Assembly (NCBI GenBank): GCA_003116975.1
Contig: BGKB01000018.1
Location: forward strand, 496,001 to 560,000
Length of the DNA: 64,000 nt
Source of the DNA: Aurantiochytrium sp. KH105
Taxonomy: Eukaryota > Sar > Bigyra > Thraustochytrida > Thraustochytriidae
Direction: 5' to 3'
Shown here: piece after piece, positions 20,701 to 61,300 of the stretch
Position numbering within the stretch: the stretch's first letter is position 1
Layout of the letters: every line of letters starts with the position of its first letter
Position numbers and translations under genes: made by a program
Notes under the pieces: model-generated
Database searches by the model: none
Seen by the model: only the letters and a program-made list of their open reading frames with translations
Told to the model about the DNA's origin: nothing

Positions 20701-23700
20701 ATGCACGTCCGGGCATATTGCGGCGCAAAAACCTTGTCAAAGTTTTCTTGCTGTGTGTGCCCCTGGAGGTGCGTAACGCCCAAGTCGCACGAAGCAACGT
20801 CTTCACAGCAAAGCGCTATTTTCGACGAAGCACGCGGAGCACAGCCTTTCGAGGGCTCAAGGCCGTGGCGAAACAGGCGAAACGGAATATCGAACTTGCT
20901 GACGAATTGCGTTACAAGCACTTTTTAGCGCAGCCGCATGGTCCTGCAGCCGAAATTTTGCATTGGTGGCGAAAATTCACAGTGTACAAGTTAGAAATCG
21001 CAGCCAAGGCTCGCGTCTTGGTGGCGCGGCTCGCGCAGCGTCGCCAAGCGCTCGCCTTGCGTCAACTCGCCTACTTGGCGGGTCGTCGTGCCTTGTATCA
21101 AGAACAAAGGGAGCTGGCTCGTGAACTTTTTGGAAACGTAGTATCCCAAAAGGCTTTCCGACGGTGGGTGGAGGCCGTGCAAGAGGCACGAGAAATGCGC
21201 GCCAAAGCGCAAAAAGCGCTCGCTTTTATGAAAGATGCTACTCTCGCGCGCACTCTGCGCGCGTGGAGGGCGGCGATCACCTTGCGCAAATCCCAAGAGG
21301 AGCGAATTGGACAAGCCCTCGCCCGAATTTCCCAGCGCACCCTCGTCGTGGCCTTGCAATCTTGGAAATCTGCTGTGGCAGCGCGCAAGGATTTTCGCCG
21401 ACGTGCGATTCAGCGCATGGCCATGCGGACCGCCTCGCGATGCCTCTCGCAATGGAAAGTGTTTGCTGTGGAAGAGCGCGTGCGCCGTTGCGCCCAGCTC
21501 GCGAGCTGGAAACTCTTGAACCGCACTGTGGTAAGGATCCAGGCGCGGTGGCGCGGCGTGTTGGGCCGCGAACAGGTCGAAGATACCCGTCTCATGGCGC
21601 AGCTCATGGCAACGCGCATTCAACAATTTTCCCGTATGGTACTCGCGAAAAAACGCGCCTTTCGCGCCGAGCGAATGAGGATTCTTCACGACTACGTGGC
21701 CGCAGAGCGCGAACAGGACCTCATGGCAATCGAAGATTATGTTGCGCAGGAAATGCAACGCGAATTCAAGGCGGCAAGACTGGTGCAACGCCACTTTCGC
21801 GCTCGCTATGCGCGCGACATGGCATACTACGCGAAACGGGAGCTAGCGCGAGCCAGAGAGATTCGCCGCCGCGAGCGCCAGCACGAGCTAATGCTCGAGC
21901 ACGAAGCCAAGGTGGCTGCTCGGCAGAAAGAGCAAGAGCGTCGCGAGGCTATTGCAAGCAAAATTCAGGCGGCGGCTCGCGGCATGCTGGCGCGCAAGCG
22001 TTACATGGTGCTTTGGGCTCGGAGTTTCCTTGGAAGAAAAGCGACCATGATCCAGTGCGCCTTTCGCCAACGCGCAGCAATGCATCGCTACGCCGCAACC
22101 AAACGATGGAGCCGCTTGCTACGTGAAACAGCTCGCCAGCAGCGCACAAATGCTCGCGCGTTGCGAGCCATGATGCTCCGCAATCGCTCTCAGCAAAAAA
22201 TGGCTCAGGGTCCTCTCGACGCGCTGGGCATCCATCCAGACACCTTTACGCTCGACTTGGCCAAGCTGCGCAAGGAGGTTCTCGTTGACTTTCGAGATTG
22301 GACAAGGTTTGCAAGGAGCGAATTTGAGGCGTATCGCCACGCACGATTCAACGCAAACAAGCGGCAGGAAATAATTCGAGCCTTTTACGAGCGTGTCAGG
22401 GACGAACAGTGGATCCGCAAGGGTGACGCTATCCGCATTATCAGCAGACAAAGCCCTTACCGCGGCGAGACTGGTTTCGTGCTCAATGTCTACGAGGTCG
22501 CCACCGTGCCAGGTGGCGCCCAGGCCGCCGTCAAGCTCGATCGAAATGGAGCAATTCTCTTTGTGCCATTGATGACAGTCCCGACAGCTTCTGAAGACAG
22601 CGTGAGCAGCATGATACGTGTCAAGAGACTCGACAAGGACTGGGCCAAGTCGAAAGTAACCCCAGAACTCGTTGCTTCAAATCAAGAAGCCATTCTCGCG
22701 TATGCACAAGGCCTCGCAGCAGAACGTCGAAGAGAACGCGCAGCGCTCGTCATTCAGCGGCATTTTCGGGGCCGGAAATGGAGAGCGTATTTCAAGGAAG
22801 CCTATGTGAAACAACAGCGTGTCGATGCGGCGCGCCAGCAAAAGCTACTTCGCATTCTTCGGCGCTTGGGGCTTGAAAATGCGCGTACGGGACGCCTTCT
22901 TGTCGCGCTGGGTCTTGTGTGGCCGCGCTACGTGCCCGAGATGCCCGACAAGCCCTTTGCGGTCGAGATCTGGGCCCGTAAGCGACAGATGAATTATGAG
23001 GCGTGGAAGTATCGCCGCTTCCAAGTCCTTCTTGCGCAGGATGAGCGAGAACGACGGGTCCGCATGCTACGCAGAAGGTTCAGAAGTGATGGCGTTGGAC
23101 CTGGCGAGAGCGACGAGCTACCGGCGCCCATGCCTGCGACGCCGTCACGCACTGCGACACCAAGCAATGCACGCACCCCGCAAGGTACGCCGAGCAACGC
23201 CACGCGCGCTAACACCCCAAGCGCTGTGGCAACGACAGGGGACAGAGATCCTCTCACCGAGGAGGCAACGTCACAGGCGACAGCTCTTCAGCTCGCTGGT
23301 TTCTCCAACAACCACATCCCTTTGCGTGGGCAAATGCTCATGGACTTTATGGTAAATACTGGCACAAACATCTCGGAAGAGCAGGAGGCCGCCATGCCTT
23401 GGCGCGTGCGAAATCCGTTCAAGGCGGCATTCTGGCGAGGCGTGCATACCCTCACGGATCGCGCGCTCGCGCCAACCGCCGAGCGCATCCTGGCGCTTTC
23501 CATCAAGAAGAAGGATGCCGGCGAAATCCCCGTTTCTGTACTCTTGCGCTTGCTCGCCAAGGCTGTGGGCGGCCCGCAGTGGCGCCGAAGCCCGATCGAG
23601 CGGCTCACATGGGTGGGCGTCTACCGATTCGACCAACTTGTCAAGAGCTGCCATGTCACAATGGATGGCACGGCCGTCTTCCACGGCACGTGGAGCCCCT

Positions 23701-26700
23701 GGGGGGTCCCACACGGTGTCGGGTTCTTAGAGCTTCCCGAAGGCGACGGTCTCGCCCGTATCAAATCCAAGTATGCCATTTACTTGCTAAGTACAAGCAA
23801 AGATGAAGAGGAAGGAGATGCCTTTCGAAAGCTCATGGAAGATCGGAAGCTGAAGCGCAAGCAAACATGGATGGAGAAAACCAAACGAAGAGCTCTCGAT
23901 GTCTCCCGGGTGCTCAACGATACTTCGAAGGAAGAAGTCAATGAGCTCGAAGATGATGATGAGCTCGAGGGCTTTTACACTGATACGGACGACGAAGCCG
24001 ACGCAGACCCAGCCTATGTCGGTCGAAAGGGTATTCTGGCAACCCTGCGGTCAAGCTCCGAAATCAGTGCGCAGATCCCCCAAACGCCGGTCATGAAAAG
24101 ACGTCAAAATACAGACTCGTCGCTCGAAGGGTTCTCGGATGAGAGCGGCCCCAACGATTTATTGTACACGTCAATCAAGACGACCGTGGAAAACGGCATC
24201 ATAACTGGTAAGGTGACAATCAACTTCAAGACTGGTGAGATGTACGAAGGCGCGTACTTTGGCGAGAGCCCGAGCGCGTGGCTCATGGCAAATCGACCTA
24301 TCGTAGAACGAATTCAGCTCGACGCGGACGATGACGTCGAGAGCTGGCTGCCGTCGGAGGAAGAATTCGACGACTTGCCCTCTGTCAATCGATGGACGAC
24401 GCCAACTGGCATTGTTTACGAAGGAGAAAGCGTAACTCATCACTTTCGTCCATCGCATCCACAAGGCTTAATGCGCATTACATGGCCCGACGACGAAGTC
24501 TATTTCGGAGAAATGGTCGAAGGCAAAAAGTGCGGTCTGGGGAGGTCGATGATGCACGACGGCGACGAGTACAAGGGCCAATGGAAAGACGATACACCGC
24601 ACGGTGTTGGCGTGTACTACTGGGAAGAGTCTCGCACTGCATTCGCAGGTCAGTTCGTCAAAGGTGTGCGCCAGGGGCGCGGGAGGCAGACCTTTGCAAA
24701 TGGTTCCCGCTACGATGGCGAATTTGTCGAGGATCAACCGACGGGCGAAGGCACATTGACTCGACCCAATGGCGACTTGTACGTTGGTAGCTTCGTCGAA
24801 GGCGAATTTCACGGCCACGGACTCATGAAGTACGCGGACGGGACCGAGTACGAGGGTTCCTGGCGACGCGGCATGCGGCATTCCGGCTTGCGAGAAACCA
24901 GCCGTTTTGTGAACAGCGAAGGGGATATCTATCACGTGCCCTTTGTGAACGACGAAATGGATGGCCAAGGCTCGTTTCTGCAGGCCAAACTGAATCCATG
25001 GCGACTCGAGCGTCACGGGGTGTGGCGTCGCGGTCAGCTTTCCCACTGGGTTGGCGTAAGCATCAACAAGGCAAGCACGGACGAGTTCTGTTCGCGTTTT
25101 GTCACGTACGCAGACTATAGCTCAGAGTACGCGTCAATTGTGGCGCAAAGCTTGCCAGAGTTGCCGTCCGGAGTCGATCCCGATGATCGGCGCGTAGAGC
25201 AGCACGTGAATGGAATTTTGCGCCGGGCCGGACCACTTGCCAGCGCAAGCATCGTGGATCGCTCCGAGCGCGCTCTTGCCGAGTTTCAGCCCTTGTACGA
25301 CTCTATCGTAGGGGCGCGCGATACGGCGCAAGCAAATCTCACGCAAGCAGAGGAAATGCACAAAGCCGCCAAGGCTGCCGTTGACGTGCAAGATGCGCTC
25401 TTTGAAGCACGCAGCGAGGAGCTCGCCGCACTTACAGCCGAGATCAAGGATTTCTGGAAGAGAGGTACTAAAGCTCACGCGTGCAAGCGCGCTTACAAGC
25501 GCGCCGTGAGAAAACTCAAGCAGTTTAGCACGCTCGATTGGTTCGCGTGCAAAATGGCCAACTTTACGCCGCCGCTGTGGACGAGCCTCTGGCACGCCAT
25601 TGCAAAAATCTATCTGACCGAGTTAGATAAACGGTCCGTTCAGCCCAGCGATGTGGAGCGTCTCTGCAATAGCTCCTCGATAAATCGTGACTTTGGCGAG
25701 CACAGCGCGCTTCTTCGCGACTACGACATCAAGCTTCTCGATGAGATTGAGCAGTACAATGTCTATGAGCGAAGCAAGGCAAAGAACATGCTTCGCGACG
25801 TCGTGAGTACCGTGCACCACCGAGATCTGAATCCCCGCAACAGCGAGCTGGCACAAATTTGTGGACTTGCTTCCCCACTCGTTGCCTTTCTTCATGCCTC
25901 ATACAACTACACGATGGCAGCCAAGGGCATTGCTCACGTCATGGACGCGGCGCTGATCAAGCTTGACGAGACGGATCGCGTGCGCGCTCTTCTTCGCGAT
26001 TGCAAGGAAAATTTGCACACGTGCGAAATTCAGGTGCACGACTGCGACCGAGCGCACCAGCTTGCAGACCTTGAGGTGCGTAACTCCGAGGTGAGGCTGC
26101 ATGAGATCCAGCTCAATTTGAAGCGCGCTCGTGAATGCCAAGAACTTGCTGCAGAGGGAGCGCAGGCCGATCGACTTGTGCACAAGTTTACCCGCCTCGA
26201 GGAGCGCGATGAAGATCCGATTTTCCCTTGGATCAGTCGCGAGGAAGAAGTAATCTTCAACGCGTGCCTTGGTGCGGTGGAATACATGCTCGATCTTGTG
26301 TGCAATATCGAGCCTGAAGTCTGGGACTGCGTGTGGACGCTGAAAGAGATCACAGTGGGCCACTTCCAGTATCAAGACGCCTATGGGGTTCTCGAGGACG
26401 ATCCCGAGTTTGTCCCTGAAGAGGTGCGTGATGCTGTTGGCGACCTTGTGAATTGCGTTGCGGGTTTCCGCGACGGTGCTGAGCTTGAAGTTCATGACGC
26501 TTTGAATGACATTCTCTACACGCTGCAAGGTGGCGCGGAACCTGAAGTCTGCGAAGCCCTAGATACTGCTGTTAATTTGGGCATCGAGAAATTTCTGTTT
26601 GAGGATCGGGCCGAAAAGCGTCAAGCCAAATTCAAGGACCAGCGTGTAGTTGTCACCATCGATGATCCTTACGGCGGTCCAGGTATTCGGAAGTTTGGAC

Positions 26701-27172
26701 TTTGCTTGGAAACGTACGACTACCAGATGCCGATTCCTGCGCCGCCCATGCCGGGGACGGGCGTCATTTACTGCGAGGTCGGCGACACCCAGGTGTACGG
26801 TTTTGAGGATACGTGCCAGTTTCTTAGCGAGATTCGCATTGGTGATGTCTTGTGCCTTCCCGATGCCGACAGCGCGTCCGGCATTGCAGAGCGAGCGGTC
26901 GTGGGTATCTGGTATGACTATCATTTGGAAATCGAGTACCCCTTCCCAGATGCGCTCGTGGCAGGGGGCTGGACAAAGCAGTGGGCTTTCCGGCAACCAG
27001 ATGCTGTGCTCGAGTACATTCCCAAGGAGATGGTCTCTGTCCAGCTTGACGAGGGCGCCATGCTAGAAGTCGAGCTTGATCACGTCGAGCGCGCCGATGA
27101 TGGTCAGGGCGACCAGGACTCGGACGAGGATGACTCCGAGGAAGAGGACTCCGAGGAGAACACGTCCAGTCT

Positions 27173-27205
<33 letters not shown>

Positions 27206-27563
27206 CGGTAATACTGGCGCGGCAGGAGTCAAAGGACAGGTGAATGGCAATGTGGAAGGGACAGAAAGGCGGAGACGTCGTTCTTCGTCGGCATCCCGAA
27301 ATCGACGTGGTAGCCGCGCCAGTCGTGCGAGTCGTTCCTCGAGCATTTCTGGCAAATCTTTGGAAATCTGGCAGCGATTTGAGGACGAGAGCGGCAACGC
27401 ATATTGGTCGCAAATCAATAGCGACGATGTTGCCGCGAGCTCCACATGGGAGCAACCTCTTCCAGGGCCCCGCGTGTGGTTTCAGTACGAGGATGAAGCG
27501 ACAGGTTTCTTTTATTTTCACAATCCTGCGACGAATGAAACCACATGGATAGAGCCCTTTTAG
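17730..27563 (+). CDS. Giant LRR / IQ-Sfi1-like / MORN / dynein-stalk-like / WW scaffold
   Basis: A 3277-residue multidomain protein in one exon; the ATG at 17730 is followed by a basic NLS-like patch (RRKRPRE). Cys-containing AMN1-type leucine-rich repeats span about 230-800 (for example CPNLERLRIAGCKHLSDAGI). About 815-1490 is helical, with IQ-type motifs (AALVVQCLVRRRR, IQAAARGMLARKRY) and Sfi1-like repeats ending in a Trp (RSWTQWQAYV, RRCFDDWKENA, KAFRRWVEAV). Those usually bind calmodulin and centrin. A KOW/SH3-like piece is at about 1565-1615. MORN repeats lie at about 2150-2390 (YKGQWKDDTPHGVGVYYW). A dynein-stalk-like region follows at about 2510-2830, an acidic run near 3150, and two WW domains at the very C-terminus (IWQRFEDESGNAYW, VWFQYEDEATGFFYF). 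I infer a centriole, basal-body or flagellar-axis scaffold. No single family matches the whole. Confidence 0.88.
20160..22190 (+). other. IQ and Sfi1-like centrin/calmodulin-binding repeat region
   Basis: This part of the scaffold encodes a long Arg/Ala/Gln-rich helix. Roughly eight W-terminated units fit the Sfi1 pattern of Ala/Leu, hydrophobic, then W, at about 30-50 residue spacing: RCFFAWREN, RSWTQWQAY, RCFDDWKEN, KAFRRWVEA, RTLRAWRAA, VALQSWKSA, RCLSQWKVF. IQ-like motifs flank them. Sfi1 repeats bind centrin and build centriole-associated fibres; that role here is inferred from the repeats. Confidence 0.6.
24170..24890 (+). other. MORN repeat block in the scaffold
   Basis: About seven MORN-type repeats, with cores such as YEGAYFGE, YKGQWKDDTPHG, YDGEFVEDQPTGEG, YVGSFVEGEFHGHG and YEGSWRRGMRHSG, occur at the usual spacing of about 23 residues. 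A separate MORN-like unit (FHGTWSPWGVPHGVGF) lies earlier near 23675-23730. MORN blocks commonly mediate membrane or cytoskeletal scaffolding. Confidence 0.85.
25256..26220 (+). other. Dynein-stalk/microtubule-binding-domain-like segment
   Basis: Order and key residues follow the dynein heavy-chain stalk. A first coiled coil (AQANLTQAEEMHKAAKAAVD) leads to a segment ending in MANFTPPLW, comparable to the dynein K-x-PP hinge. Then come FGEHSALLRDYD, an RDLNPRNSELAQICGLASPL stretch comparable to F-x-P-E-x-V...S.A...L, and ASYNYTMAAKGI, comparable to the Y..V.K that closes the dynein globular head. A return helix follows. No AAA motor domains are present anywhere in the gene. The match is by eye to the family pattern, not by search. 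Confidence 0.55.
27173..27206. repeat. GAC array encoding poly-Asp
   Basis: A GAC trinucleotide run encodes about eleven consecutive aspartates inside an acidic, Ser/Glu-rich linker just before the WW domains of the scaffold. Confidence 0.9.
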
Positions 27564-40300: not shown

Positions 40301-43300
40301 CGACAGAGAAGATCTCATCCTTGATACGAATCACCTCGCCCCGAGACACACCCATGTCCGACGAGGTTGTGATCGTCGCGGCGCCTTGCACGGTTGTCAC
40401 CAATCCTGGCAAAGCCTCCATAGCTGTGGATCGGCTCACCGAGACCGTCTCGAGACCCGGAAGCGCTTCCAAAGCGTCGCGCACCTCGTCCGCCGTTGCG
40501 TCAAAGGCGAGCTCCTCGGTTTCGTCACCCCCATAAATGAGAGAAAAGCTTCCGCTGAGCTCTTCGCCCTGCTGAGTTGTCGCAATCTCCACCGTCGCGC
40601 CGGCAATGGATGACGAGTCAATCGTAAGCTCCGGCACGTTTCCTTGAACGGCTCCACCAGAAAATGTAACCTCATACGTCATACCGTGACCGATCGCGCC
40701 AGAGTGTTGAACAACGTTCACTGTGACTCCGCCAGCACGAATGTTGGTCAACTGCTCGAGCTCCGTCGCTAAAGCGCTGGTATCAGATACGTCAATCGAT
40801 CCGGTCGTATCTGTAACGCCCTGGAAGAAGCACAGTTCACAGTCGCTACTCGTATCCCAGCTCAAGACCAGCCAGCCAGTCACAGGTTCCGGTGTGACGG
40901 AGACGAGCGATCCACTTCCACAGGCGCCAGAGCATGCAAAGTCTTCGCTGCAAGCGGTCACGCCCACAGAGTCCACCTGCAGCTGAAAGATGTCCGAAGT
41001 TTCGGCAAATGTCACCTCGTAGTCGTGCCCGGTTGCAGTCGGAGTTCGCGTGACCGACACCGATGGCGTCGTAAAGCTGGAATCGTAGGCCAAAACCGCG
41101 TCTTGGATCGCAGTCGCCATCGTCGTAGTATCAGCATCCCAGGCAATACACGCTGTAGTTCTACCATTGTATGAAAGAACGTACTCACCCGCAGTGATTT
41201 GGGTATCAGCAGCAACGCTGATTGTCTGCACAACAGAGGGCTTGTAGATGCGAACTTCTTGCACTTCGTCTCGAGGTGACGCTGACACGAGCACTTCTTG
41301 TGTTCCGTAGAGCATCTGGGAGTCCTCGAGCATGAACCACTGGCCATTACCTGAGTCAAAAGTTACGACCGTGTCAACCTCGACACGGTAGCCCGAGACG
41401 GACTCCCCACCATCGTCCGTTGAGGCATCAAAGGTGATCGAGGCCTGGGAGCCAGTCGCTTCCGAGCCCTTTTGTACCTCCTCCACCAAGACGGTTTTAC
41501 CGACCCCTGTGAGGAGCGTCGAAGACCCTGTTAGAGCGTCGAGGTCGCCGCCGTTGCTTGGACTTGTAAAGGTCACGAGCCACGATCGACCACGCTGCGA
41601 ATCTGTGGTCGTCCCTGAAACATCGACCGACTTGACCGTGCTCAAGGCCTCCAAGGCAGTCTGAATGTCCGCAGCGCTCGCATCATACGCAATAGCAGAC
41701 GTTGTCGCATGCTGGTAGCTCAAGGTGAACTCGCCAGACAGCCAGTTACCCTTTTGTAACTCGTCAATGGTGACCACTGCGCCAGATCCTGTCAGAGAGC
41801 TGACAGATGTCATAGCACCGAGATCTCCAATGTCAGAGGTAAAAGTGACCGACCATACATATGCATTTGTCGCCGCATCCACCGTGCTTCGTGTGACATC
41901 AACACTATGGGTGTTGCCACCATTCAGAGCCTCAATTGCCAGCTTCACATCATTTTCAGACGCATCGTATTGCAAATTTGAGGTTGTGGCGGAACCAAAA
42001 GTGAGCGTGTAGAAACCGCCGATCTCGTTGCCGTTCGAGATCGTCTGCACAGTACAGGCATCACCATCGAAGCCCCCGCCAGTGGCGCATGACATCTCCA
42101 CGAGATTGCCACCATTGCCTTCGAAAGCAACAGTCCAAAGAAAGCCGCCAAATTCGTCAGCAATTGAACGTTGCGTATGGACGCCAAAGACATTGGGCAA
42201 CTTTTCGAGCTCGGCTTGGAGCTCTGCAGCAGTCATATCAAATGACAAGTCCTCGCCAGCTGCATCTAACACGCTCACAGCACTTGCATACGTGTTTGCC
42301 AGTGGCACCCACGCCTTGCACGCCGAGCCACTGCCCGGTCCATTGGCAACCGTGATGTCGTAACTCGGGGATGCAGGGTCAACAAAGACGACTGTGAAGG
42401 AGTAACCTGCATCTGCCGCAACCCAGGTTCGAACCACCTCCACGTCAGTGATACCGGCGAGGCTCTCCAGTGCTGTCTCGACCTCAGCTTCAGTAGCATC
42501 GTGGTTCAAACAAGTTGCCGTTGTAGCGGAATCGTACTCGAGACGGAAACCGCCCACTGTTGCAGCCCCACCATCGCCGGAGCTCTGATAGAGACGCACA
42601 ACCTGCTTTTCCTGTGCTGTGGTGAATGTGTGACTTTCGCCATTCACTTCTCCCGTGAATGAGAGTACAATTGTTCCAGTCGAGATGCTGCTCGAGCTAG
42701 TCGTCTGGATCGTTTGCACCTCACGCAAATCGGTGCAGCCCGTTGTGATGGTCTGAATTTCATCAATATGCGAAGCTGCAAGAGTTACCCGCTGAATCTC
42801 GTCTTGGTGAAGAGCAATGTCTACCGCCAAAGGAACAGGAGGCGCCGGGACCCCACGAGGGTATTCCACAGGGTTCTCTGTCGAAAAGGCCCCAAGGCCA
42901 AGACTATTTCGAAGAGCCACACGGAAGGCGTATGGGAGACCCGTATCGAGTCCAGTGACAGTGTATGCGTCGGGAAGAACGCCCTTGATGGCTTCGAAGC
43001 TGAGGACGTCAGCATCAGAGCCATAAAGGTTGCTCACGTCGCTCGTCAAATCATCAAGATCGCCGAGGTTGGTGCCAAAGTTAACTGTCCAGCGGTGCCC
43101 AGAAACCTTGTATACCGTGAGTCCAGATCGAGACCAGCCGGAATACGTTGCAGGAACGTTTGCATCGCCACTCAGGACCTCCCCGTCCACCCGCGTTACC
43201 GCGCCGAGGTACACACGATTCTCCGTGCCTTCCGTAAGTGTCTCGTAGTTGAGAACAAGGCTGTCGCCAACGAGTGAACCCTGATCCGCGATTAGCTGAG

Positions 43301-46300
43301 GCACATCGCCCATCACTGCATCGCCCACGAAAGTGATATCCCAGGTTGAACCTTCCTCAGTCACGTCGCTTGTAGATGCGTCCGTGCGCGATACTTCTAC
43401 TTGATAGGCGCCAATGTTTGGAAGTGCATAGAGCTGCTCCACTAGTGAGCTCGGCCCATGGTCCAGGGTTGGATCGATCGCGCCACTCGTGTAGCTACCC
43501 TTGACTGTGCACATGCTGCAAGACGTTGTATCAAAGGTGACAGTCATACCCGATCCGAGATTGCCAGGGCTTGTTCGGACATCAACCATATTTGTCAAGG
43601 TGCAGCTTCCCTCGATGATCTGAAGAGGGTAAAAACCACTCGCGCTGTTAAAGACAACCGTGTACGTTACAGTTGACGATGTTGTGGATCGCGTCACGCT
43701 TGACACTGTCTCCCCGGTCCTAGCCTGAATTGCCGTCTGCATATCATTTTCGCTGGTATCTGTACTGAGACAGGTTCCGTACGCAGCGCCGTTGTAGGTG
43801 AAGTCGAAGGTCTCTGGTGCAGAGATATCTGCAAGCTGCAATGTAAAAGACTGCGTTCGAAGCGAGTCTGTGAGCGTGATGCGCTGAACTTCTTTACGGA
43901 GCGGGCCCGCCAAGGTGGTATCACCCTCTACAATGGTAGATTCTTGAAGAAGACTGTCTGGCGTCAAGGCTGTGCACCCTGTCTCTGTGAGCTGAAGCTG
44001 CTCTCGGTCTCCTGCGTATGTGGTCCCTTCAAAGTAAATGGAGTACACATAGCCTGCGTTAGGCTCTGACGCACTTGCAAGGCGTCGGGTCACGCGGACA
44101 TCACCACTCGATGTGGAGTGAAGGCTTTCAATTGCATCCTGTACCTCACTTTCAGAGGCCTGGAAAGAGAGGCAAGAAGTGCCACCCGGGTTGCTAGCAT
44201 CGTAGATCTTGAATTGGCCACCCGTCAGCGAGCCAGTGCCGGAAGCCGTTGTAACAGAAAGCTCCTGGATCTCGACGCCTTCGTTGAGGATGGAAAACGT
44301 CGGAGGAACAGCGTAAATGTATGCGTCTGCGTTTGTCTCGCCTGCAAAAACCCGATCAAGCGTCAGCGTATTTGCGGCAGTACCCGCTTGGACTTCTGTT
44401 GGTGTGACGGTGCCAGAGTTATCGAGCGCTGCACAGCCGGGATCTCCGAGAGCGGCTGTCAGATCATCAACGTCGCCATCGAAATTGTCGCCGACAAAGA
44501 AGATGGAGTACAAGTAACCATCGCCAGTGATGTACTCGCGAGTGACAATAACGTCATCAATGCCGTCCAGGAATTCGACTGCGGCCTCAACATCTGCCGC
44601 AGTAGCATCAAAGCTCAAGCACGTGGTCGTCTCGTCCAGATATTGAAGCGTGTATCCGCCAGCTGTCGGCGCATTGCCGATGGCCACAGATTGGATCTCG
44701 ACGCCTGTGCTGAGCACTTGATACACACCATTATCGATGCGGACGTAGTCGAGCTCGGCAATGTACGGGCGCAAGTTCGCGCTCGTGGTCACGGTAGCGG
44801 ATCCTACGGTCATCGAACCCGTGCCCTGCGTGATGAGTTCGTCTCCTGTGACGCCAATGTCGTCGATGCCGTTAAGGCCGAGACCATCAGCACCACCAAT
44901 CCGCACAACGTCCCCACGAGAGACATGTGACCACAGGTCAGCCGTCGCGTCCATGTATGCAATGCCCTTCTCCACAGTGACGGTTCCTGGCAATGGTTCC
45001 ATCATCGCGAGCGAACGATGAGTGCTGACTGCACCGATGCTGTCAATGAGTTCGAGTTGCGTCTTGATGTCCGTCGCGCTAATGTCATAGGAAAGCGCGT
45101 CAGTCTCTTGTCCATCGTAGGAGATTCGAAAGTATCCCGAAAGCGGGGTGCTTCCGGCTTGTGTCTGGTCAGCCGCCACGGCGGCGCCGGTCCCGCTAAG
45201 ACCCGAGCTTGTCCACGCCAGTGTGGAAACATCGCCCGATCCAGGTGGCCACGTCTCTCCCTCAAAAACGCCAGGGTTTCGAAGGAAGTAAATGCGCCAG
45301 AGGTAACCGCCCACTTCGCCATCTGAGGTGGCAACGGCGCCCCAACCGCCCGCCCTGGGAGACGGGTACACTTCCCGTGTGACCCGCACGTCCATGAGAG
45401 GATCGATCTCACGAAGCTTTCGCTCTACCTCGACAGGATCAGCATCGAAGTTTATCGTGCGGAGAATGTCCGAAGTGTCAGGGAGCTCGAGCGTGAAATC
45501 GCCCGAAAGACTTGTCGATCCGGCCTGGTCTTCGTCGACAGAAAAGACCATTGTGTTCGACCCGGTGTCTGTTTCGATCATAAACGTTGTATCAAGGGTG
45601 ATATCAGGTCTGTCACCGGCACCTGGAGGTGTCTCTCCGGGATTTTCGGTGAAGCGAACGGACCAGTATCGCGCTCCGTACTTGCTGACTCGCGCCGAAG
45701 TGACGTCTACACTGGTGACTTCAGGAAGTGCCTCGAGAGCGGCCTTGACCTCGGTCGCGCTTGCGTCCCACGAAAGTGGTAGCGAATCGATGCTGCCAAG
45801 CTGCATCACGAAGGTGCCGCGCATAATGTTGCCCTTGAGAACTTCATTGACGGCAACGGCAGCGTTGGTCCCGATCAAAGACCCATCATTTGGAACGAGG
45901 TCCGGAATATCTCCCGCGCTCAAACACACAGCGTCTCCGGGGGTGCATACATCCTGGAGAAAGGTGATTGACCAGCGATAAGCACCAGCTTGTCCGGGAC
46001 CGACGTGGTGCAAGTCGACATCATCCCGAGTTACAACGACATCTCCGATATTTGCCATCGCCTCAAGTATTTCTTCGATGCTCTCTCCGGCTCGCGACGT
46101 GAGTGCTGCATTGGCGGCTGAAGAAGGTGCATTGTGCGCAATCGCACCGGACGTATGCGAGGCCTTAACGTACATAAAGTCCGAGTTCGTAGAATCGAGT
46201 GTGACCGTGAAGCTTCCAGAGAGCGGCAAACTGCCCGCTGAAAACTCGGCAGGAACGCAAGAAACCGATTGGGCCACCGTCTTGGCCTGAAGCCCTCCAG

Positions 46301-49300
46301 CATTACAACCAAGGAGCGGGATGTCACCGACATTCTGGCCCCAAGCCGTCGAGAAACCAGAGTCCCAGTTGTCATTTCCATGGTCCGTGCCATCATGCTG
46401 AGCACCATTTACAAAGGTGATTGACCAGACATAGCTTTGCGTCTGAGCCATTGCCGCGTCTTGTGTGCGCGACACTTCGACCTCGTCAATGTATGTATGG
46501 CGCTCCAGAGCAGTTTTCAAGTCACTGGCGGAAATTGCGTGCGACAACGGGGCTGTGTCCTCGCCTTGGTACTCGATGATAAATGAACCATCAAGCTCAT
46601 TTCCACTCACTTGGGTGCTAACGTCAATTGAAGCACCTGTTCCAGTCAATTCATCGCACGAGCCAACGGGTGACCACGAGAGCTGCTCATTGCACACATT
46701 TCCGGTCGTGTCACAGACAAATGAAGCACATGACGTGAAGTCAAGGCCAAAGTCGTATGAGGGAAATTCAGGATCAACAAAGTTCACAGTATATGTGTAC
46801 CCGTAAGAGGACGTCGAGCTTGTCGCATCACCAGAACGCGAGACCCAAAGAGACGGAATGTCGCCACCAAAAGTACTTTGCAGCGCAGACTGAAAGTCCG
46901 ATTGTGAGAGAGTCCAGCTCAAGCAGCTGGTAGAACCGCCATTGTACGTGACTCTGAATGTCCCGCTCTGCACCGGGCCATCCGCGGCTAGAGAGAGCAT
47001 CTGCACGCTCTGGCACGTATCTGGCACGGTGAGCTCGGCGACGTCACCTCCAACATCGCTTCCCTCGAAAGTAATCGTGTAAGACGATCCGCCAGCTGGG
47101 CCGGTTGCGCTTCGAGTCACAGAGACTTGACTTGCGCCAACATTACTGAGCCCATTCAATGCAGTCTCGACGTCCCCCTCGGCGGCGTTTGCCGAAATAA
47201 AACCGGTCTCTTCTGTTGACCCTCCGTGCGTAAGCGAGAGCTTAAAGTAGCCACCGACTTCGTTGCCTGCCCTCTCTTCTGTATGTTGTGCGCTGACGGA
47301 AGCGATTCCATTTGTATGCGTCAAGCTTGAGTCGTCATCAATTTCCAGCTGCTGCACGTCGGATGCTAGCGTCTGGTACTCGATTGTCCATACGTAACCA
47401 CCAGTCCAGCTGTCGTCATCATCCGGAGTAGGCCGGTATTGAGTCCGTGTGACTCCAAGCGTACCCATGCCAGAATACTGGGTTTCGAGCTTTGACTTGA
47501 GGTTCTCTGGCGTCTCGTCCCAGTCAACAGTGACAGAGCTAGTGCCACTATCCCAAGTCACATCAAAGGTTCCACCAATAAAGTTGCCAAAGGTAGTCTT
47601 TGTAACACTGTAGCCAATGTTGGTTCCAGTGGAAGTACCATACGTGGGGTCGTCAACAGCCAGAGATGGACCAACGCCAACACAAGAGAATGTCGGCATA
47701 TCGCCCGAGTTGCCGATAAAGGTGATATCGTACTGAACACCTCCGACGCCGTCGTTCAGAAGCGTTTTCGTGACTGCGATCGGAGCGACCATACTGTCCA
47801 TAAGCTCCAGCTTCTCCTTTATCGATGTTCCATCACCTGCAGTCTCATCTGGAGCATTAATTTGGATATTACTCGAGTCTTCCGCGGAACCAACCAACAC
47901 AACCGACGCCGAGGTATCATCGTATTGGATAGTGTAAGTACCCTGTTGGTCGATCTCATTGCCTTCAACCTCCGTGGTGGGGTTCAATGGAATGGCAACG
48001 GCATCACCAGTCAGCGCATTACTTGTAACGGTGAGCATAGCCGCAGGCAGATTGCCAGACATGCTTGAATCACTGAAGACCATGCGCCATGTGATACCCT
48101 CGCCTTCCTCGCCGACGTGCGGAGTCTCCGTAACCGTCACAACGATATTTGACAGTGCATTCAACTTCGCCTCCAGGTCGCCGGACACAGTTACGTCGAT
48201 AGGATCAGTCGTTTCGCTGGTCTTTACAGTGCACAATGTGCAATCAGTCGTATCTGCAGTGAGCTTAAAGGTACCGCCAAGATTCGTCGATTCAACCGTC
48301 ACAGGGACTGCAGGGCTACATGCGGAGCCACCGCAAGTGAAGGTAGAACCACATGAAGTCGAGGAGAGAGAAAGGTCTTCAGGGCTGGATGGCGAGGTGA
48401 AAGTCACGGCGTAGTCGGCCACAGAAGTAGTGTGCGTGTTTCGAGCCACATTTACAGCGAGATTATCGGTGCCGCCCGAGTCGAGCAGTTGCTGAATCGC
48501 ATACTGGACAGAGAGCTTGTCAGCACTCTCCGCATCGGCATCCCAGGGAATGCAACGAGTTTCACGGGGCGTTCCATATGTACCGTACTCAAGCTTAAAG
48601 CCAGAGTAGTGACCATCCACCGAGCTGACCGCAATCGTTGGGCCATCGCCCGTGAGACTGTCGGTCCCCACGGTCAAAACTGGCACGTTGCCACGCACAT
48701 TTGCTCCCGAGAACGTTACCGTAAAGATGTATCCTTCGCCATCGGCTTGATCGGTCCGTGTTACTGAGACCTGGCCGCTTCCGATATTTGCCAGAGCAGA
48801 AAGTTTGTCTTCAAGATCTGTCGGGCTTGTCGGGTCGATGACGCCTGTAGTGGCGACAACGTGCTCATTGCAAAGCTCGCAGTCTGCCTCGTTCGAGGTG
48901 TCGAACTGCAGAGTAAAATCTCCACCAAGATTCGTCGAATCAATCGTGAGACTCTCGGAATTGCATTCTGCACCACCGCATTCGATCGTGTCACATCCAC
49001 CGTTGTTGACAATCACGAGAGCATCAGGGGCAGTCGGATCTGAAAACACAACCTCAAGCAGGTAGTCAAGGTCTGTAATTTGCTCGGTAAGAGTTGTTGC
49101 CACGTCCACAATATCGGTCAGCGCCTCAAGCTTGGTCTCCAAAGAGGCGGCCGGCTCATCGAAGCGGATGCACCGAGTCTCTTCACCACCATAGCTAAGT
49201 TTGAATGCACCATGATTGCCCCCAGTTGTTGTCGAATATGAAATTGAACCGAGGAAAGTGAGTGTGTTGCTCGGCACTGTAAGTTGTGGCACATTTCCAT

Positions 49301-52300
49301 AGATTGCGTCGAACGTAATGTCCAGAACGATGGTACCGTCAAGGCTGCCGGTTTTTGACACTGCAGTACCTCCGTGCACGCTCACGCCACCGGAAGCGCT
49401 GTTGATAGCAGCCGCAATGGCCGTACCATCATCATTTACGATATCAATCGTGACGTCAACATCCGCAGCATTGTCGTCGAGAAGATGGTCCGAGGCAGAG
49501 TTGGCGGGAATTCGCAGAACAAAAGTTCCCGACATGGAAGAGGCTGATGAGTCTGAGTTGATGGTAATCTGCTGCACCTCGGCTGTCCTGCCGAGAGTTG
49601 AAGCAGCCGTGACGCTGACCGTTTGTGTTAGCCGAGGCTCCGAGACGGCGATTTCTTGAACCTCATAGCTCGAATCGATCGCCGCGTTGCCAGAGACGGT
49701 GATCTGCTGCTCTCGACGCGGCTCAGTGAGCACAAGTTCCTGCTCTTCGTTCTCATCGTCACCAGTGATAATGAGACGCTGCACAACATCCACATGATCA
49801 CCTGTAGTGTAGATGGTCTGGAGCTCGTTGATGTCATCGGCAACAATGGCCACAACCTGCTCTTCGTTCACGTCGGGCGTTGATGTAGTGATGGTTTGAA
49901 TTTCCGCAACAACGCTATCTGCATCTGTAGTAATCGTTTGGACTTCATCGACGCCAGTCACACTGCTTGTCACTGTCTGCCTTTCGTTGGTGACTTGAAC
50001 CGTTGCACGAACTTCCTGAACTTCGTTGACAACTGTCGCCCGGGTTGCGACCACTTGTGTTTCGTGCAGAATAGGAACCGTGGCGCTGCCTAGGCTCTCC
50101 GTGCTGATGGAGAGTGTCTCGGTTGCCCCAGCAAATGCAGTGCAACCAGATTGATCCTCAGAGATGACGAGACTATAGGGAGGATCCACTGGATTGTGGA
50201 AACGCACTTGCCAGGTGTATCCATTGGAGGAGGACGTCTGATCCACACGCGTGACGCTGACATCTGTAATCGAGGCAAGTTCTGTTTCGAGAGCGGTCTC
50301 GAACTCACTTGCTGTTGCGCTCCAGGAGATGCAATTTGTCATCGTGTCAGGCCCAAACTCAAGACGGAAGGCACCGTCAGTGAGGGTTCCATCAGCAGCC
50401 ACGGTGACACTTTGAAGAGAGTCAAAGGAGGTGCTAGGATCCCATTCCACTTCGAGGGACTCGAGTGACTCTCCGCCGTCACTGAATGGCAACGTCCAAG
50501 TAAGCTCAACCGAGCTCTCCGAGATCACCGTGGCAGAAACGTCGGTAGGCTTGGGTGGAACCTGATCCGCAGGAATGGCTGTCGATGGGGTAGTTACGAG
50601 CGGAGGGCCATAGCCGAGCGCGTTCATTGCGGTGACTCTCGCAGAGTAGGTTTGTCCTTCGACCAAGGGAGTGTCAACGGCCCCGGTAAGGATATTACGG
50701 TCACCAACGACATATGAAAAAGTGTTGCCGTCCACCATTGCATACTGCGCCGCTGGAGGCTGGCCAAAGTCAGTATCCCACTCCACAAGGTAGGCTGTGA
50801 TGGGGCTGCCACCGTCGCCGCCATAGACTGCGAGATCAGGATTTGGCGCAGTCCACTCGACAAGGAGCTGGCCCCCACTCACGACAGTCAATGTGGCAGT
50901 CTCTGGGACGCTGGGCAGCCTGAGCTTGGGAGTGGCGGATTGAGGGGCGCTGCTTGTGTACGCACTAGCTCCGCGCCGATTAACCGCACTCACACGTACG
51001 TAGTACGCGTGATTCGTGGTGAGGTCAATGTTGTAAAAGTACGGGCCAACGGTGTCGTCAGCCACCGTGTACGAGACAAAGTAGTTGCTCGTTTGGATGT
51101 TCCCAAAGTTTACATCGTAGTCCCACTCGATGCGGTACGACTCGATCGGAAGACCACCATCGTCCCCAGGAGGGCTCCAGACTATCTTGATTTGCGAGTC
51201 ACTCATGGTCACGACCGACACACCAAGAGGGGCATCCGGGACCCCGGAAGGTTCCTCCGAGGCCGAGCGCGCGCTAGCAGGTCCTCGTCCGATTGCGTTG
51301 ACTGCAGTCACCTGGGCCACATACGACTCGCCCTTTGTGAGACCTGTGATCTCATAGCTGTCGGAGCCTGCCATCGAAACAGGGTAGTTGTAGCTTCCGT
51401 ACGAGGTTGGCAAAATGCCGAGCACTGTGCTAGAAACCATTGCACGAGCACTGGGACCGGTCAGTTGACTGTAGTCAACGCTGAGAAGCGGTACAGGGCC
51501 GCTCGTGCCTACAAATGTCACGTGCCAATCGAAGCCATATCCATTGACAGATCGTGTGACGTCGACCACGGAGACGGTTGTGAGGCGCTCAAGCGCGGTC
51601 TTCACCGTGAGTGCTGAAGCATCGTGCGCCAAAGGTGGCGTCCGGTCTTCCACACTCCCCCCATTCTCCATGAAGCCGAGTGTGAATGTGCCACTGAGCG
51701 GCTGCAGGCCCTCGCGTTCGGTGATCGTGTACAACACAACATTTGGACCAACCCAACCAGATGCCGCCACCGGTTCAAGGGCAGGCTGGTCACCAATATG
51801 GCCTGCGGCAAATGTGATGGTCCAGTCGTAGCCGTAGCCCCACGTGAACACCTTGATCGGGTTCGTTGGCACCGGAGTGACGAAAGAGTCCTGAGTAGCA
51901 GAGTCACCGGCCTCCGCGAGCGGAAGCACCGTGTTACTAAGAGCAACACATGAACCACCTTGACAAACGGAGAACTCTTGGTCGGCGACCCAGATGCGGT
52001 CTCCGGCGGAAAGGGAGGAGAAGCAATCTGCGACTGTGCACGTGAGAATCGTGAGAGCACCAGAATCGATTGTCACCGTGCCCGGCAGCGCCACCTTTGA
52101 AGGTGTCCGAACCACCTCGACCGTTCCAATGGTTCCCATACGCTCTAGCGTTGCCTTGACTTGGCTCGCGCTTGCGTCCCAAGCAATGAGCTCAGAGACC
52201 TCACCGCGAAAGGATACCCTAAAGTTGCCTTGAATCGTGCCGTCCGCAAAGCTTGTAATACGCTGAACCTCTGTGATTCCAGCCAATGCAGATGTTGTGA

Positions 52301-55300
52301 TGGTCTGCTCTGCAGGCACGCCGTCTGCGGTGAACCACTCCAAAAGCATCGATGTCACGGGAAGTCCGGTAGAGCCCTGCTCTGGTACGTCAAAACCAAG
52401 CGTGAGGCCTGTTGCGGAAGCCACCGTCAGCGTCGGTGCTGCTGGCGTAGCTGGGCGCGCGACGGGTGTGACGCTTGCCACGGGGGACACGGCGCCAAAT
52501 CCAATCGCGTTGAAAGCAGAGGTACGCACGTAATACGTGGACCCAGTGGTGAGACCATCGATCCAGAGCTCGAGGGGATTGGTACCTTGAATCATCTCAG
52601 AAACACGCACTTCGCGAACGAGTCCGCTCAAGCCTGAAGCATCAGCCTGCAAAAGACCAATATTTCCAGCACCTTGAACAATCTCGTCGGCCAAATGCGT
52701 GAATTCGACGGTCCAGACAACGCCTTCGGTTGGGTCTGTACCAATCAGGGTCCGCTCAATATTGACCGTGTGAATCGAAATGAGTGCTTCGAGCTCAGCT
52801 TTCACAGTGCTCGCATCGGCATCGTAAAGAATCGCACCAGTCGTGTGGCCTTCAAAAGTAAGTGTGAAGCTACCCGAAAGAGGCGAAAGCGCATATGTGC
52901 GCACCGACTGCTTTTCAAGCGTATACTCACCAGGGTAGAGATCGGCTGAGCCAGAGACGAGCTCTTCCACGGTAACTCTGGCATCGTATCCGGTCAGCTT
53001 GGTATAGTCGGCCTCGAGAGTTCCGAGATTGCCACGAACTCCAGTAAAGGTAATACGCCATTCGTAACCATTTCCGAGAGCCACGCGCGCCACCTGAATC
53101 GGGTTCGAGCCTTCAGAGTAAGCACCGGTGATGATTTGAATCTCCTCAGCAAGAGCTGCAGCACTAATGTCGTAGTCGAGATCGCTCGTCTCGCGGCCAC
53201 CCCAAGTCAATGTGAAGGTACCGGCGATATCGTCTGCTTGGGCAGACGTGTAAACGCGCTGAACCTCGTCCACCACGGAAACTCGCGTGCTCTGCCTGTA
53301 CGGAGACGAAAAGGACGCAAGTGTGTCCCACTCAATTTCGATTGACGTCACCTCCGCACCACCGTCATGCAGCGGAGCCTCGTATTCGACCATCGCCGAT
53401 GTCGACGTGATGAAACGGCCCGCAACGAGGCTGCTTGGAGCAAGCGGCGTGGTACCAACCGCCGCAGTCTTTGCGGTCGTGATCGCACTCAGACCGAAGC
53501 CACTCGTCATACTCTTTGCCGTGACGCGCACCTCGTAGGTCGTGTCCTCGGCCAAAGCAAGGTAGCTTGGCCCATAGCGAGGGAGCACATAGCTGTCCCG
53601 CGGAGCATCAATCAGGACCTCTGGCGTGCCCCCAGAGGGATCCGTGCAGGACTGACCTGAGCCAATCCCATCCAAGACGAGAAGCGGAATCGTCGCTGTA
53701 GAGTACTCGTCACCCCAGAATGAAATCGTGTAGACATATCCAAACAGTGAGTCTGCAGTCCCATCTCCTGAGCGTGTGACAGTAACCTGATCAAGACCCA
53801 TGAGCAGCTCCAACTCAGTCTCTATAGCACTCGTGGAAGCGCCCCAGCTAATGCAGTTGCTTGGTGCGCCCGCGTAACTAAGCTTGAATCCAGGCGTTCC
53901 AGGATCGGCATCGGCTCGCGTGCGGATTGTTTGCACCTCGCTCCGTGCGCCAAGAACAAGTGTTCGAGGTGCATGTCCAACAGCGGACAGGACCCTGAGT
54001 GAAACTCCAGTGCCGGTCCAATCGGTCTCCGGAACGGCACGGAAGGACTCGAGAATGTGAAGATCATTCTCGACAACGACAACCTTGAACAGAATTGTCC
54101 ATTCGTAGCCATGAGCGCTGACCTGAACTTCCGAAGTCCCGGAAACGTCGGACTGGGTCCATGCTGCAGCAAGTGGCAGTGCGGATGCCGTGCATGCCGT
54201 GCTGCTATGCCGTTGAACATACACCGAGTCAATCCAAAAGTAGTCACCCGCCGCAATTTCATCACAAAGATCCCGAGTCGTAATCACAGTTTGGTCGCCG
54301 TTGGCGACGGACACTTGAGCGTTCACACTTCGGCGCGATACCGCGCGAGAGACACGAACGCGCCCAATACTGTTCAAGAGCTCCAGCTCGTCCTCCATGT
54401 CAGCGGGCAAGACGTTGTAAGCGAGTGCTGAGGTTGATTCTGACCCAATTTCGAGCTTAAAGCTGCCAGCAATGTTGTCCTGGTCGGCAGACGACACGAT
54501 TACGGCGCGGCGATACACTTGAGCGGTCGAATCAAGACCTTCTAGGTGTTCAGAATGCGCAACGAGGATATCTTGAGCACCTGCAGAAGCCGGGAAGGTG
54601 ATGTGCCATTGGACAAAGGTGTCTTGACCGGAAGTCTCATCCACCTTGACGACCTTGACCGGCTCGAGACCTGTCACAGCAAGAACTGCGTCCGAAACCT
54701 CGGAGGCGTCAGCAGAAGCTGAGACCGTTGCCAAGTTCCCATCCCGAACAAGGACAATGGATCCCGCCACGGGATCAACATTGGCCTCGAGGACGAGAAC
54801 TTGGACGTCGCTCGAGCCTTCAACACAACTTCCGACGTACGAGCCGTCGGTCCACTGTTCGCAAGCCTGCGCAACTACTTCTGTTGAGATATAGTCGGTA
54901 GGCAAGACACCATCAGTCGGCGTCGAAATAGACACCGTGATCGTGCCTCCATAGGAGGTCAGGCCCGCAGCGTTCACAGTGACCTCGTCGATGTCGCCGA
55001 GGTCGTTCGCAAATGAAATTGTCCAAGAGTATCCATACGTGACGGTCGAGCGGGTAACGACAACGCCGCGCAGCGTCGTGAGCTCGGCAAAAGCAGCCTC
55101 CATCTCTGCTTCAGAGGCATCGTGCGCAAGAACGCGCGTGGTCTCGCTTCCGAGCGTCATCGTAAAGGTTCCATAGACATTGTCTACGTCGCTTGAGATC
55201 GTCACAGTCTGCGTCTCCGACGTCACGCTCGCTTGCGGAAAGGCCTCGACAATGTAGCGGTCGACAAAGGTTTCCCCAAGGACGCCAGCTGGAGCATCCC

Positions 55301-58300: not shown

Positions 58301-61300
58301 GAAGGCCGTCAAATTGCGCGCGGCCAAGCGCCTTGATCGTCACCGTTGCGTCGCTCGATGGAGCGGAAAGTGTGTCCTCAAAGATTGCAACAAGTTTTCG
58401 CGGAGAACTCGTACGAACACTTGTGAATGTGACTTCCCATTCGTACCCGTTGTCCACAGACTTGCGCGTGACGTCAACGGTGCCAACCAGTCCCAGATCC
58501 TCAATCGCAGACTTGACATCACCAGCACTTGCATCCGCATTAATGGCGGCTGTGCGCGCAAGACGATAGCAAGGCACGTACGCGTATGTATCACCCTCGT
58601 GCGAGGCTGCCATGCTTGCATCTTCGCTGTCCGCAAGAGGCGCGGTGTAGGTGCCCCAAGCATTGGTGAGATGAATCCGATACGTCGGGCCATTGACGAT
58701 ATCGCCAACACGAACAAAGTCGCCTTCAATAAGCGTTGGCGGAGCAAGGTTTCCATTCGCAATGCCCACGCCGAAAAGCCCAGACAAATCTGTTTCGCCA
58801 GGTGCCACAGAGCACCCTCCCAAAGCCGTGTCGAGCTGGAAAACAGGAGTTCCCACGGACACCGTCTCGCCTTCAAAGGTTGCCGATATGCTCGCATCCG
58901 CAACACTTGCAAGAGGAAGATTGTTTGCATCTAGCGTGTCCGACAGGTGCACGCGGTAGGTGTATCCCAAGATGCGAATGTAGTCTCCCCGAGCAACGCA
59001 GTCAGTCAAATCAGTCGCGCCAGAGACCTTGACGAGCGACGAGGCACCGTTCGCTACGATCACAAGCAAATCACCACACAACCTTTGCGTGTAAGCACCA
59101 AAGTCATCAAAGCCTCCATAAGCGAGGTAGAAGGTACCACTGATCCCCGCAGCATATGCGCTGGTGCGAATGCGCTGCACAGTATAGTCAATTGGCAACG
59201 TCTGCGAAACCTTGTCTGAAGAGCTGAAGCCGGCACTGCGGTCAATTTCGACGCGGAACGAGTTCACGGTCTCACCGCCATGCTCTTCCGGCTCCTCAAA
59301 GGACACCAGCACGGAGTCATCGTCAACAATTCGCATTTCGACTGAGGTCGAGGCGATCGGTACGCTCTTTGGAGAAAGAGACGTCGGCGATGATGCCACC
59401 AGTGGTCCACGGCCTCGGTCTGTCTGCGCAGCAACTTGTACAAAGTACACCTCGCCAACACTGAGACCTTCCATCGTGTAGGTGGATGTCGGGGCCGTGA
59501 CGAGTGCGGAGCGGTAGTTGAGTGGATCCACTCCCGTGACATGAGTGCTGTCGATCGTCAACGATGCTCCGGTCGACAATAGCTCGGTGTTGTACGCGAG
59601 CGAAGGTTGTGCGCCTCGTTGCGACAAGAAGGAAATCGTCCACGTGTAGTCGCTGCCGCTCGAAGACCTTTGCACACTAATGTCACCGACAGACGAAAGT
59701 GACTCCAGAGCCTCTTCCATTCGTGCTGCTGACGCATCGTATGCGATATCCGTCGTCGTTGGCTTGCCAAGAACAGTGTAGATTCCTGAGTCCCCAGAAA
59801 AGCTTGCAGCCAACGGGATTCGTGAAGCCCCGAAGACCGATGTGGGATCTGTATCAATGGTGAATTCAACGCCATCGACGAGGATCGTGTCGCCGCGAGC
59901 AAGAGCAACAGTGGGATCGAAGCCATTCAAAGGCTCCAGAAAGCTGTCGCCCTGCGTGACGGTCACCGTGCCAAGATCAACGTCGAAGCTGCTGCCAAAG
60001 GATAGGGTGAAGGACCCAGAGGTAGCCCCTGTTACGGCCACGGTCTGTTCATTCTGCACACCAAAGTGAGGCGTCGAAGCAGAGCGCTGGTACCACTCGA
60101 TAAAGTACCTATCCACAGTCAATCCAGAGGGGAGAACTGGAGCCGACCAGCTCGCCTGAAGAGAATTTCCTGTGCCAGTGTTCGTCAACGAGACGGACTG
60201 AACCGGCCCAGGAAGTCCCCGAGGCGTTTCGCTCGCAGGTTGCGTCGTGGCCGCGGCACCGAATCCCTTCTCAGCATTGTACGCTGACACACGAACATAG
60301 TAGGCCGTGCCCGTCGTCAGGCCGCTAATCACGTACTTGACAGTTTCCGCCGCAGCAACGACGGCGCTGCCATAGTCAGAACTGCTGAAAGCATTGGTGC
60401 TGTCCCACTCAACCTTGAACTGGCTCACAGCCCGTCCACCGTCAAACTGTGGCAGAGCAAAATGAACTTCGAGTTCAGTGCTGGAGCGAAGCTTGAGAAT
60501 GGGGCTTTCGCACGCAGTAGATGAATCGAACGGGTTGCACGGCGCATCCGGCGTCTGGAATGGCGGCGCAAGTACGCTCGGTGTTGTTGCAATCGTCTCG
60601 CCATAGCCAATTCGGTTCTTTGCGGCGACGCGCGTGTAGTACGAGCGTCCAGGCGTCAGACCTGTAATTCTGTAGGAATTGACACCAGCTGCGACAAACG
60701 GGCAGTTGCCATCAGACGTGCTGGCACATCTGCTAAAGTCGAAGGAGGTGACGGATTCCGTAGTACAGTCTGTGCCAGCGCTTGCGCCGCACTGAATCGG
60801 ATCACAGCGTGCGCTGATGGCCGGATATACTGCGTTGAGCGAAGGAGCATCACCGCTCGGGTCTGAAATCGAAATTGTGTATGTGCGGTCTGTTGCGCTC
60901 GTGGAAAGTGATGTGCTGACAGTTGTGAATTCTGCGTGCGCTTGCACGAAAGCATCCATCTCGGCTGCCGTCGCATCGTATGGAATGCATGCCGTGGACA
61001 CACCGCTCGGGGTTTGCAAGACATATGAACCCCGGTTTCCGTCCGTGCCAGGAGCCACCGTTACAGAGGCGCTCGGTCCACTCAATCCCGAATCATCGGA
61101 GATTGTCAAGAGAGGAACGTTGCCAAGGTCAGGAAAGCTGATCGTGTAGATCCGTTCGTGGGAGCCCCCTGACCCGTCGGCAGCACTCACTGTGATATCC
61201 GTATTCGAGAACAGCGTACGGAGTTGCGACTCAAGATCGCTTCCATCAGCACTGACACTAATGGGAGTCTGAGCACCTGAAATCGTGCACAGTCCACAAT

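Follow-up and report, generated by a model that had tools for sequence, protein, structure and literature searches.

The locus described here raises the question of how a short protein repeat can hold an almost fixed spacing while its sequence diverges, and of what such a repeat does in its protein. The window, that is the whole stretch of DNA analysed, comprises 64,000 nucleotides of the thraustochytrid Aurantiochytrium sp. KH105 (positions 496001–560000 of contig BGKB01000018.1, here C18, in an assembly of 76 Mb). On its minus strand it carries the C-terminal 9,282 codons and the stop codon of a giant gene (36150–63998, with 36150 as the end of the frame), which forms part of one unbroken, intronless open frame at C18:532153–581223 encoding 16,266 amino acids (1.70 MDa) when counted from a likely methionine at codon 92. 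The repeat is an array of thirteen units within this protein, each resembling the first strand (hereafter the head) of a recurrent module. We consider it quite probable that the array forms the opening half of a deeply nested bracket, whose spare heads complete later modules that lack a head of their own (headless bodies), the last head being used first, and that the entire nest lies in one loop of a single FN3 domain.

The thirteen units described in the earlier note are present in a minus-strand frame from 50063 down to about 49540, with the pattern ExQx[IVL] and a spacing of mostly 13 residues. Head-to-head spacings are 13, 13, 13, 14, 13, 13, 13, 13, 11, 17, 11 and 17, so the 11+17 spacing noticed late in the array occurs twice; all thirteen units have the glutamine, and all have I, V or L at position 5. 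At lag 13 the BLOSUM62 autocorrelation amounts to 0.40 over all units and 1.05 over the first nine; across lags from 5 to 39, none of 2000 shuffles equalled either value. None of 1575 other stretches of the protein matched the value of 0.40 (the best reached 0.07), and the best of these overlap a small array at 42684–42800, likewise at lag 13. Both short arrays that had been pointed out could be confirmed, with three heads spaced by 13 and 13 at 42684–42800 and three spaced by 13 and 11 at 41196–41306. The main array is composed of V, I and T to 39%, compared with 24% for the whole protein, and of G and P to 4.6%.

The suggestion that the array is old and maintained by selection rather than produced by slippage is likewise borne out. 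Tandem Repeats Finder (minimum score 50) called no tandem DNA repeat over the array, the units share a mean base identity of 44% (first 30 bases, or ten codons, of each), and among 244 pairs of identical residues from different units the codon is shared in 99 (0.41, compared with 0.43 expected from codon usage). A second copy of the giant gene, at C89:183918–232769, also encodes 16,266 amino acids and aligns without gaps with 15,874 identical residues; synonymous divergence between the two genomic copies is 7.5%, with neither a length change nor an indel over all 16,266 codons. The gene family has many loci that are present twice in the genome, on two contigs. The second copy has the same thirteen units, with 18 synonymous and 5 non-synonymous changes in 179 array codons, and the ratio of non-synonymous to synonymous change per site (pN/pS) is 0.09 for the array, 0.15 for the whole gene and 0.13 for the median sliding window. 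The array is thus old, and it is constrained to about the same degree as the protein around it.

The earlier note derived the unit from the module's first strand, and this is right: the same unit begins the module of about 98 residues, for which the order is beta-beta-alpha-beta. A profile grown from one copy gave 86 matches in the protein, fragments included, 81 of them over more than 60% of the profile. Pfam recognizes FN3 domains in the giant protein; the module itself matched no Pfam or NCBIfam family above cut-off in the protein pieces searched, and weak matches to POTRA, HMA and similar families were attributed to chance or to a likeness of fold. By sequence similarity the module belongs with a phage tail module. 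Related families in PHROGs are named 'major tail protein' and 'tail sheath', PHROG 10909 is matched at E 8.7e-9 by a typed consensus and at 4e-4 by one real module from the window, and the module profile matches gp23 in the tail structure of phage Bxb1 (PDB 9d93) at E 1.6e-56. The searches turned up relatives in 13 viral contigs and four bacterial genome contigs. The consensus module found nothing at E 0.01 in the phage and plasmid collections, which reflects a limit of sensitivity since 521 phage records match a gp23 fragment. No array homologue was confirmed in the viral contigs; the single match to a two-unit DNA pattern sits in stop-rich sequence and was dismissed. Some modules also carry a small insert, by eye SH3-like (the name of the fold is a guess; LPGTVTI...GDRIWV...), in the loop that leads into the YVWTITF strand, at 51801–52055 and 44715–45005 on the minus strand, and in one case this insert itself seems, by eye, to be split by a module.

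Counting bears on what the spare heads do. Many bodies seem to lack the first strand, and we call a body headless when no ExQ-like strand lies between the previous body and its own G-x-F landmark, and headless bodies come after arrays. When assigned by hand, spare heads are as numerous as headless bodies in all 11 arrays of the protein (28 = 28), with 3 and 3 for the arrays at residues 75 and 765, 1 and 1 at residues 1826, 2423, 3416, 7840, 10880 and 13687, 2 and 2 at residues 14051 and 14549, and 12 and 12 for the main array at residue 11630. Taking the assignment as given, this equality was reproduced in 17 of 200,000 permutations among arrays. Because the hand assignment was made after the pattern had been seen, we also ran an automatic parse, for which the head matrix was trained solely on 34 heads from phages and bacteria and the body profile left out the head. 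At threshold 5 it found eight arrays, with heads and bodies of 3–3, 2–3, 1–1, 1–1, 1–1, 12–12, 2–1 and 1–2, exact in five of eight and within one in all eight (r 0.985). N-terminal and C-terminal parts are therefore equally numerous in the main array at that threshold, 12 = 12, as expected of nested insertion, and it is these counts that point to strands completing distant modules.

The main nest reads as follows, all on the minus strand. The twelve spare heads occupy 49581–50063 and are followed by the thirteenth head with its own body (49254–49580, residues 11791–11899). Headless bodies 1 (48987–49244, X type), 2 (48624–48950, DCxLC type), 3 (48348–48635, X type) and 4 (47994–48308, DCxLC type) would, in last-in-first-out order, receive the heads LTQTVSV, EVQEIAVSEPR (11 residues), REQQITV (17 residues) and EEQELVLTEPR (11 residues), respectively. 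Bodies 5 and 6 lie at 47682–47960 and 47292–47606, and body 7 (47019–47273, residue 12560) is broken before its last strand, its tail apparently resuming near 46605–46652. Between these pieces lies a module at residue 12649 (46725–47006) with the head-like strand SVQMLSL, yet only 24 residues of room ahead of it. A strand matching the one missing from 12560 follows 12649, and joining it lifts the score of 12560 from 61.3 bits to 66.7, a value matched in 2 of 150 random joins; 12649 therefore appears to be a complete module inserted in 12560, and the automatic parse at threshold 5 likewise assigned it its own head. Bodies 8 to 11 follow at 46260–46622, 45849–46241, 45591–45833 and 45174–45527. 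Body 12 (residue 13263, closing at 13948) is split by an insert into an N-terminal part at 44973–45164 (profile 7–71) and a C-terminal part at 43005–43109 (profile 61–95), which score 55.7 and 26.3 bits separately and 83.0 bits when joined.

Two observations bear on the order in which heads and bodies are matched. The main nest contains two DCxLC bodies and two spare heads of 11 residues, and these coincide exactly when the order is reversed; over all 28 pairs, four 11-residue spare heads meet four headless DCxLC or SCxMC bodies and the other 24 pairs have neither (the spacing of head 3416 was left unmeasured in this tally). An alternation of two module kinds would explain the 11+17 spacing. 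First-in-first-out pairing, by which the two DCxLC bodies of the main array would get ordinary heads, was rejected. Head-body similarities also correlate under last-in-first-out pairing (r 0.36, compared with 0.04 for the opposite order), a value reached in 76 of 20,000 permutations with whole units and in 230 of 20,000 with the first ten residues.

The host of the nest is itself in two parts, as expected if the nest had been inserted in it. The N-terminal half of an FN3 domain precedes the array at 50415–50567 (Pfam fn3 profile 2–40, 25.8 bits), and a C-terminal half, profile 50–80, is found at 42813–43019, about 2,480 residues further on, with 17.5 bits and thus under the cut-off of 25. A second FN3 domain is split likewise, into profile 14–38 and 49–82.

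Taken together, these data suggest how the arrangement may have come about. A module would have been inserted repeatedly in another copy of itself, in the loop behind the first strand, so that the chain, numbered by pairs, would read head1, head2 ... head13, body13, body12 ... body1. A head would then consist of a strand of about 7 residues and a loop of about 6, which would account for the period of 13, and each spare head would finish the sheet of a body between one hundred and more than 1,000 residues downstream. Thirteen extended residues would measure about 4 nm, probably about the length of one module, so that the heads may form a spine against which the bodies are placed in reverse order. 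In a giant secreted surface protein, the nest would probably serve to make a rod out of a row of modules, with an unbroken spine of strands. The units, their counts, the split FN3 domain, the matching of types and the constraint are observed, and the strand pairing, the rod and the cellular role are inferred. Hydrophobicity over 19 residues is highest in stretches that begin at residues 4–10 and resemble a signal peptide; a further stretch at residue 4620 scores 1.72, and a membrane segment there is possible.

The earlier note had suggested another fate for the array, perhaps a beta-solenoid or stacked-strand rod; on this view the array would fold alone, as one of these or as a beta-meander, independently of the later modules. 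Its strand-like units, its richness in V, I and T, its low content of G and P and its age and constraint would all suit such a fold. An AlphaFold model of the whole array with one atypical module, however, gave no confident fold (mean predicted local distance difference test, pLDDT, of 49 and values of 31–47 over most of the array), showing a low-confidence helix and two isolated strands; the alignment was shallow, which makes this weak evidence. A fragment of two heads with two bodies from 40557–41270 on the minus strand, in contrast, was predicted with mean pLDDT 83.7 and predicted TM-score (pTM) 0.72, both heads being ordered strands (residues 2–10 and 13–20). The alignment for this model had 53 family rows, one of which overlaps the query, and heads were removed from all but three rows to avoid prompting; an alignment in which the aligner had fused heads to the wrong body was left out of the prediction. 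The best solved neighbours of the two-head model are chains of Bxb1 gp23 (E 3.2e-5, with a TM-score of just 0.34 by query length). A fold of the array by itself also leaves unexplained why headless modules are equally numerous and why head types match body types, and we regard it as unlikely.

The same counts and types would be expected if the heads completed headless bodies of another molecule, with chains exchanging strands in the manner of donor-strand polymers. Pili provide a precedent, since strand donation from one molecule to another is known there. Nesting accounts for the origin of the arrangement without any exchange, the single-chain prediction orders both heads, and phage gp27, judged by its sequence, nests inside one chain; we therefore give exchange between molecules little credence. 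Even less can be given to the view that both are relics, with heads left over from deleted modules, bodies that lost their heads separately and equal counts by coincidence. The protein is indeed rich in partial modules and inserts, and 11 of 45 bodies outside arrays were called headless in the automatic parse, but an array pN/pS of 0.09, the automatic 12 = 12 at threshold 5 and the type matching in reverse order argue against decay. Recent tandem slippage has the tandem arrangement in its favour and can be practically dismissed, given that no DNA repeat was called, that codon choice is randomised and that unit number is identical in the second copy; neither near-identical DNA units nor, between the two copies compared, any variation in copy number was seen.

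Several points weigh against completion of the distant bodies by the spare heads. The hand assignment was made post hoc and involved judgement for several heads and bodies (for example at residues 791, 3416, 10151, 12649, 13698 and 14300), and the counts all come from one species. At threshold 6 the automatic parse was exact in three of eight arrays (r 0.74), the main array giving 3 versus 12 where a weak head breaks the chain. That parse also called 24 of 37 bodies headless in runs with an array, compared with the 11 of 45 in runs without one; in our judgement some of the latter are variant heads such as SEEIYIN and TELTLRL. The gap from the previous body separates the kinds poorly, being about 25–55 residues for headless bodies and about 24–66 for those with their own head, and a global score of bracket balance was no better than in shuffles (13 unmatched compared with a mean of 9.9). 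One of the four 11-residue matches is forced, that array having a single spare head, and one rotation of the first-in-first-out order, itself meaningless, gives r 0.40 and so exceeds the last-in-first-out value. The C-terminal half of the host FN3 domain falls below the Pfam cut-off, and the middle piece (41316–41483) of a third FN3 domain, supposedly cut in three, matched no family. Finally, the two-head model predicts that the heads are ordered, not which strands they pair with.

The smaller arrays of the window, also on the minus strand, can be parsed in the same way. The three-head array at 42684–42800 has two spare heads and is followed by headless bodies at 41766–42053 and 41484–41768, and that at 41196–41306, also with two spare heads, by headless bodies at 40584–40901 and 40386–40586. 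Single spare heads are EVQRITLTDSL (43860–43892, 11 residues), ahead of a module with its own head RTQSFTL and with a headless body of the SCxMC type at 43260–43589; EQTITTS (52272–52313), with a headless body at 51432–51728; and EQKVVVS (61383–61433), with a headless body at 60813–61064. Two paralogues in the same genome, each read in part, by eye and post hoc, look similar. One (L053) has a one-head array followed by one headless body, twice, and the other (L052) has two or three recognizable spare heads followed by three headless bodies, and a diverged array of strands ahead of about seven. Further long open frames with the module in this genome have 12,336, 8,019, 3,642–3,713 and 3,311 codons and occur as pairs of similar length on two contigs.

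Among the closest known systems is the tail tip cage protein gp23 of mycobacteriophage Bxb1 with its relatives, such as Aeneas gp27, which contain the same module; gp27 is 100% identical to the gp23 of PDB 9d93 over the 130 residues compared. In gp27, N-terminal parts lie at 270, 331 and 391, the third continuing into its C-terminal part, and further C-terminal parts lie at 507 and 561, so that by its sequence the module appears to be nested in itself three deep, whereas the homologue Rockstar gp26 has one module at the corresponding place. Both genes (L072 1011–3068 for gp27 and L073 1206–2579 for gp26) adjoin the tape measure gene and make a before-and-after pair for self-nesting. The phage proteins differ from the giant protein in that a later loop, the one joining the VTR and YVWTITF strands, takes the insertion, in that N-terminal parts are about 60 residues apart rather than 13, and in being three rather than thirteen deep. 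Long bacterial open frames, from planctomycetes and others (L067–L070), resemble the giant protein in having 3 to 12 copies of the module each; in L067, unlike here, all 12 modules begin at profile position 1 and so have their own heads, and the few Q chains that a pattern scan found in L068 and L070 are by eye not heads. Titin and other FN3 giants are likewise very long chains with many FN3 domains, whereas two of the FN3 domains tested here are split by inserted runs of modules.

Among proteins of flagellar hairs, the tubular mastigoneme protein OCM5 and the 'Tubular mastigoneme protein' of PDB 9ufe, which we take to come from a stramenopile, each have one region that matches the greater part of the module profile (E 1.2e-4 and 0.0035), the OCM5 match being weak and covering profile 3–86 of 97. 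A domain thus appears to be shared, although these chains have 366–368 residues, one such region each and no array in the alignments seen. OCM6 gave E 0.27, which is not significant, and among the papers listed in our literature searches there was none on the 9ufe structure.

Nested domain insertions are known, for example, in the cyanobacterial RNA polymerase beta' subunit, and the recursive A1-B1-C-B2-A2 architecture described there is likewise proposed here; a 2026 survey of domain insertions presents six nesting levels as its complex case (PMC13114784). Compared with that case, the giant protein would have 13 levels, all of one module and in one FN3 loop, and showing as an array of strands at 13-residue spacing. 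Among the papers listed by our searches of an open-access library we found no report of nesting of such depth, or of such an array. On balance it seems likely that, in a giant eukaryotic protein, a module of phage tails has been centre-embedded thirteen deep, with twelve first strands set out as a spine of 13-residue period and returned to twelve bodies in strictly reverse order, and that this is the deepest domain nesting known to us.

Elsewhere in the window, on the plus strand, an open frame of 1,975 amino acids at 2694–8621 has FG-GAP and ephrin-receptor-like repeats (a short TcdB_toxin_midN match falls within its FG-GAP region and is probably nothing more than FG-GAP), 12697–15660 encodes a gamma-tubulin complex component, and an open frame of 3,277 amino acids at 17730–27563 has MORN repeats, leucine-rich repeats, an IQ motif and a WW domain. 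The genome has PfaA-like polyunsaturated-fatty-acid synthase genes on contigs C72, C155, C290 and C61; the match scores 930 bits, under the family cut-off of 1010, and 11 of 14 control genomes also yield a match of some kind. A family search of the genome found no match to the light-harvesting family PF00504. Both results would suit a stramenopile resembling thraustochytrids, and the synthase genes may point to a labyrinthulomycete-like organism.

The odd repeat yields a rule that can be tested, in that the number of heads should give the number of headless modules that follow and their pairing. If the pairing proposed here is correct, the growing polypeptide would hold twelve unpaired strands while the bodies are made in reverse order, which would bear on the limits of delayed co-translational folding and of recursive domain insertion. 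One family, without a model in the Pfam and NCBIfam searches made, links phage tails, giant bacterial proteins and, weakly, the proteins of flagellar hairs.
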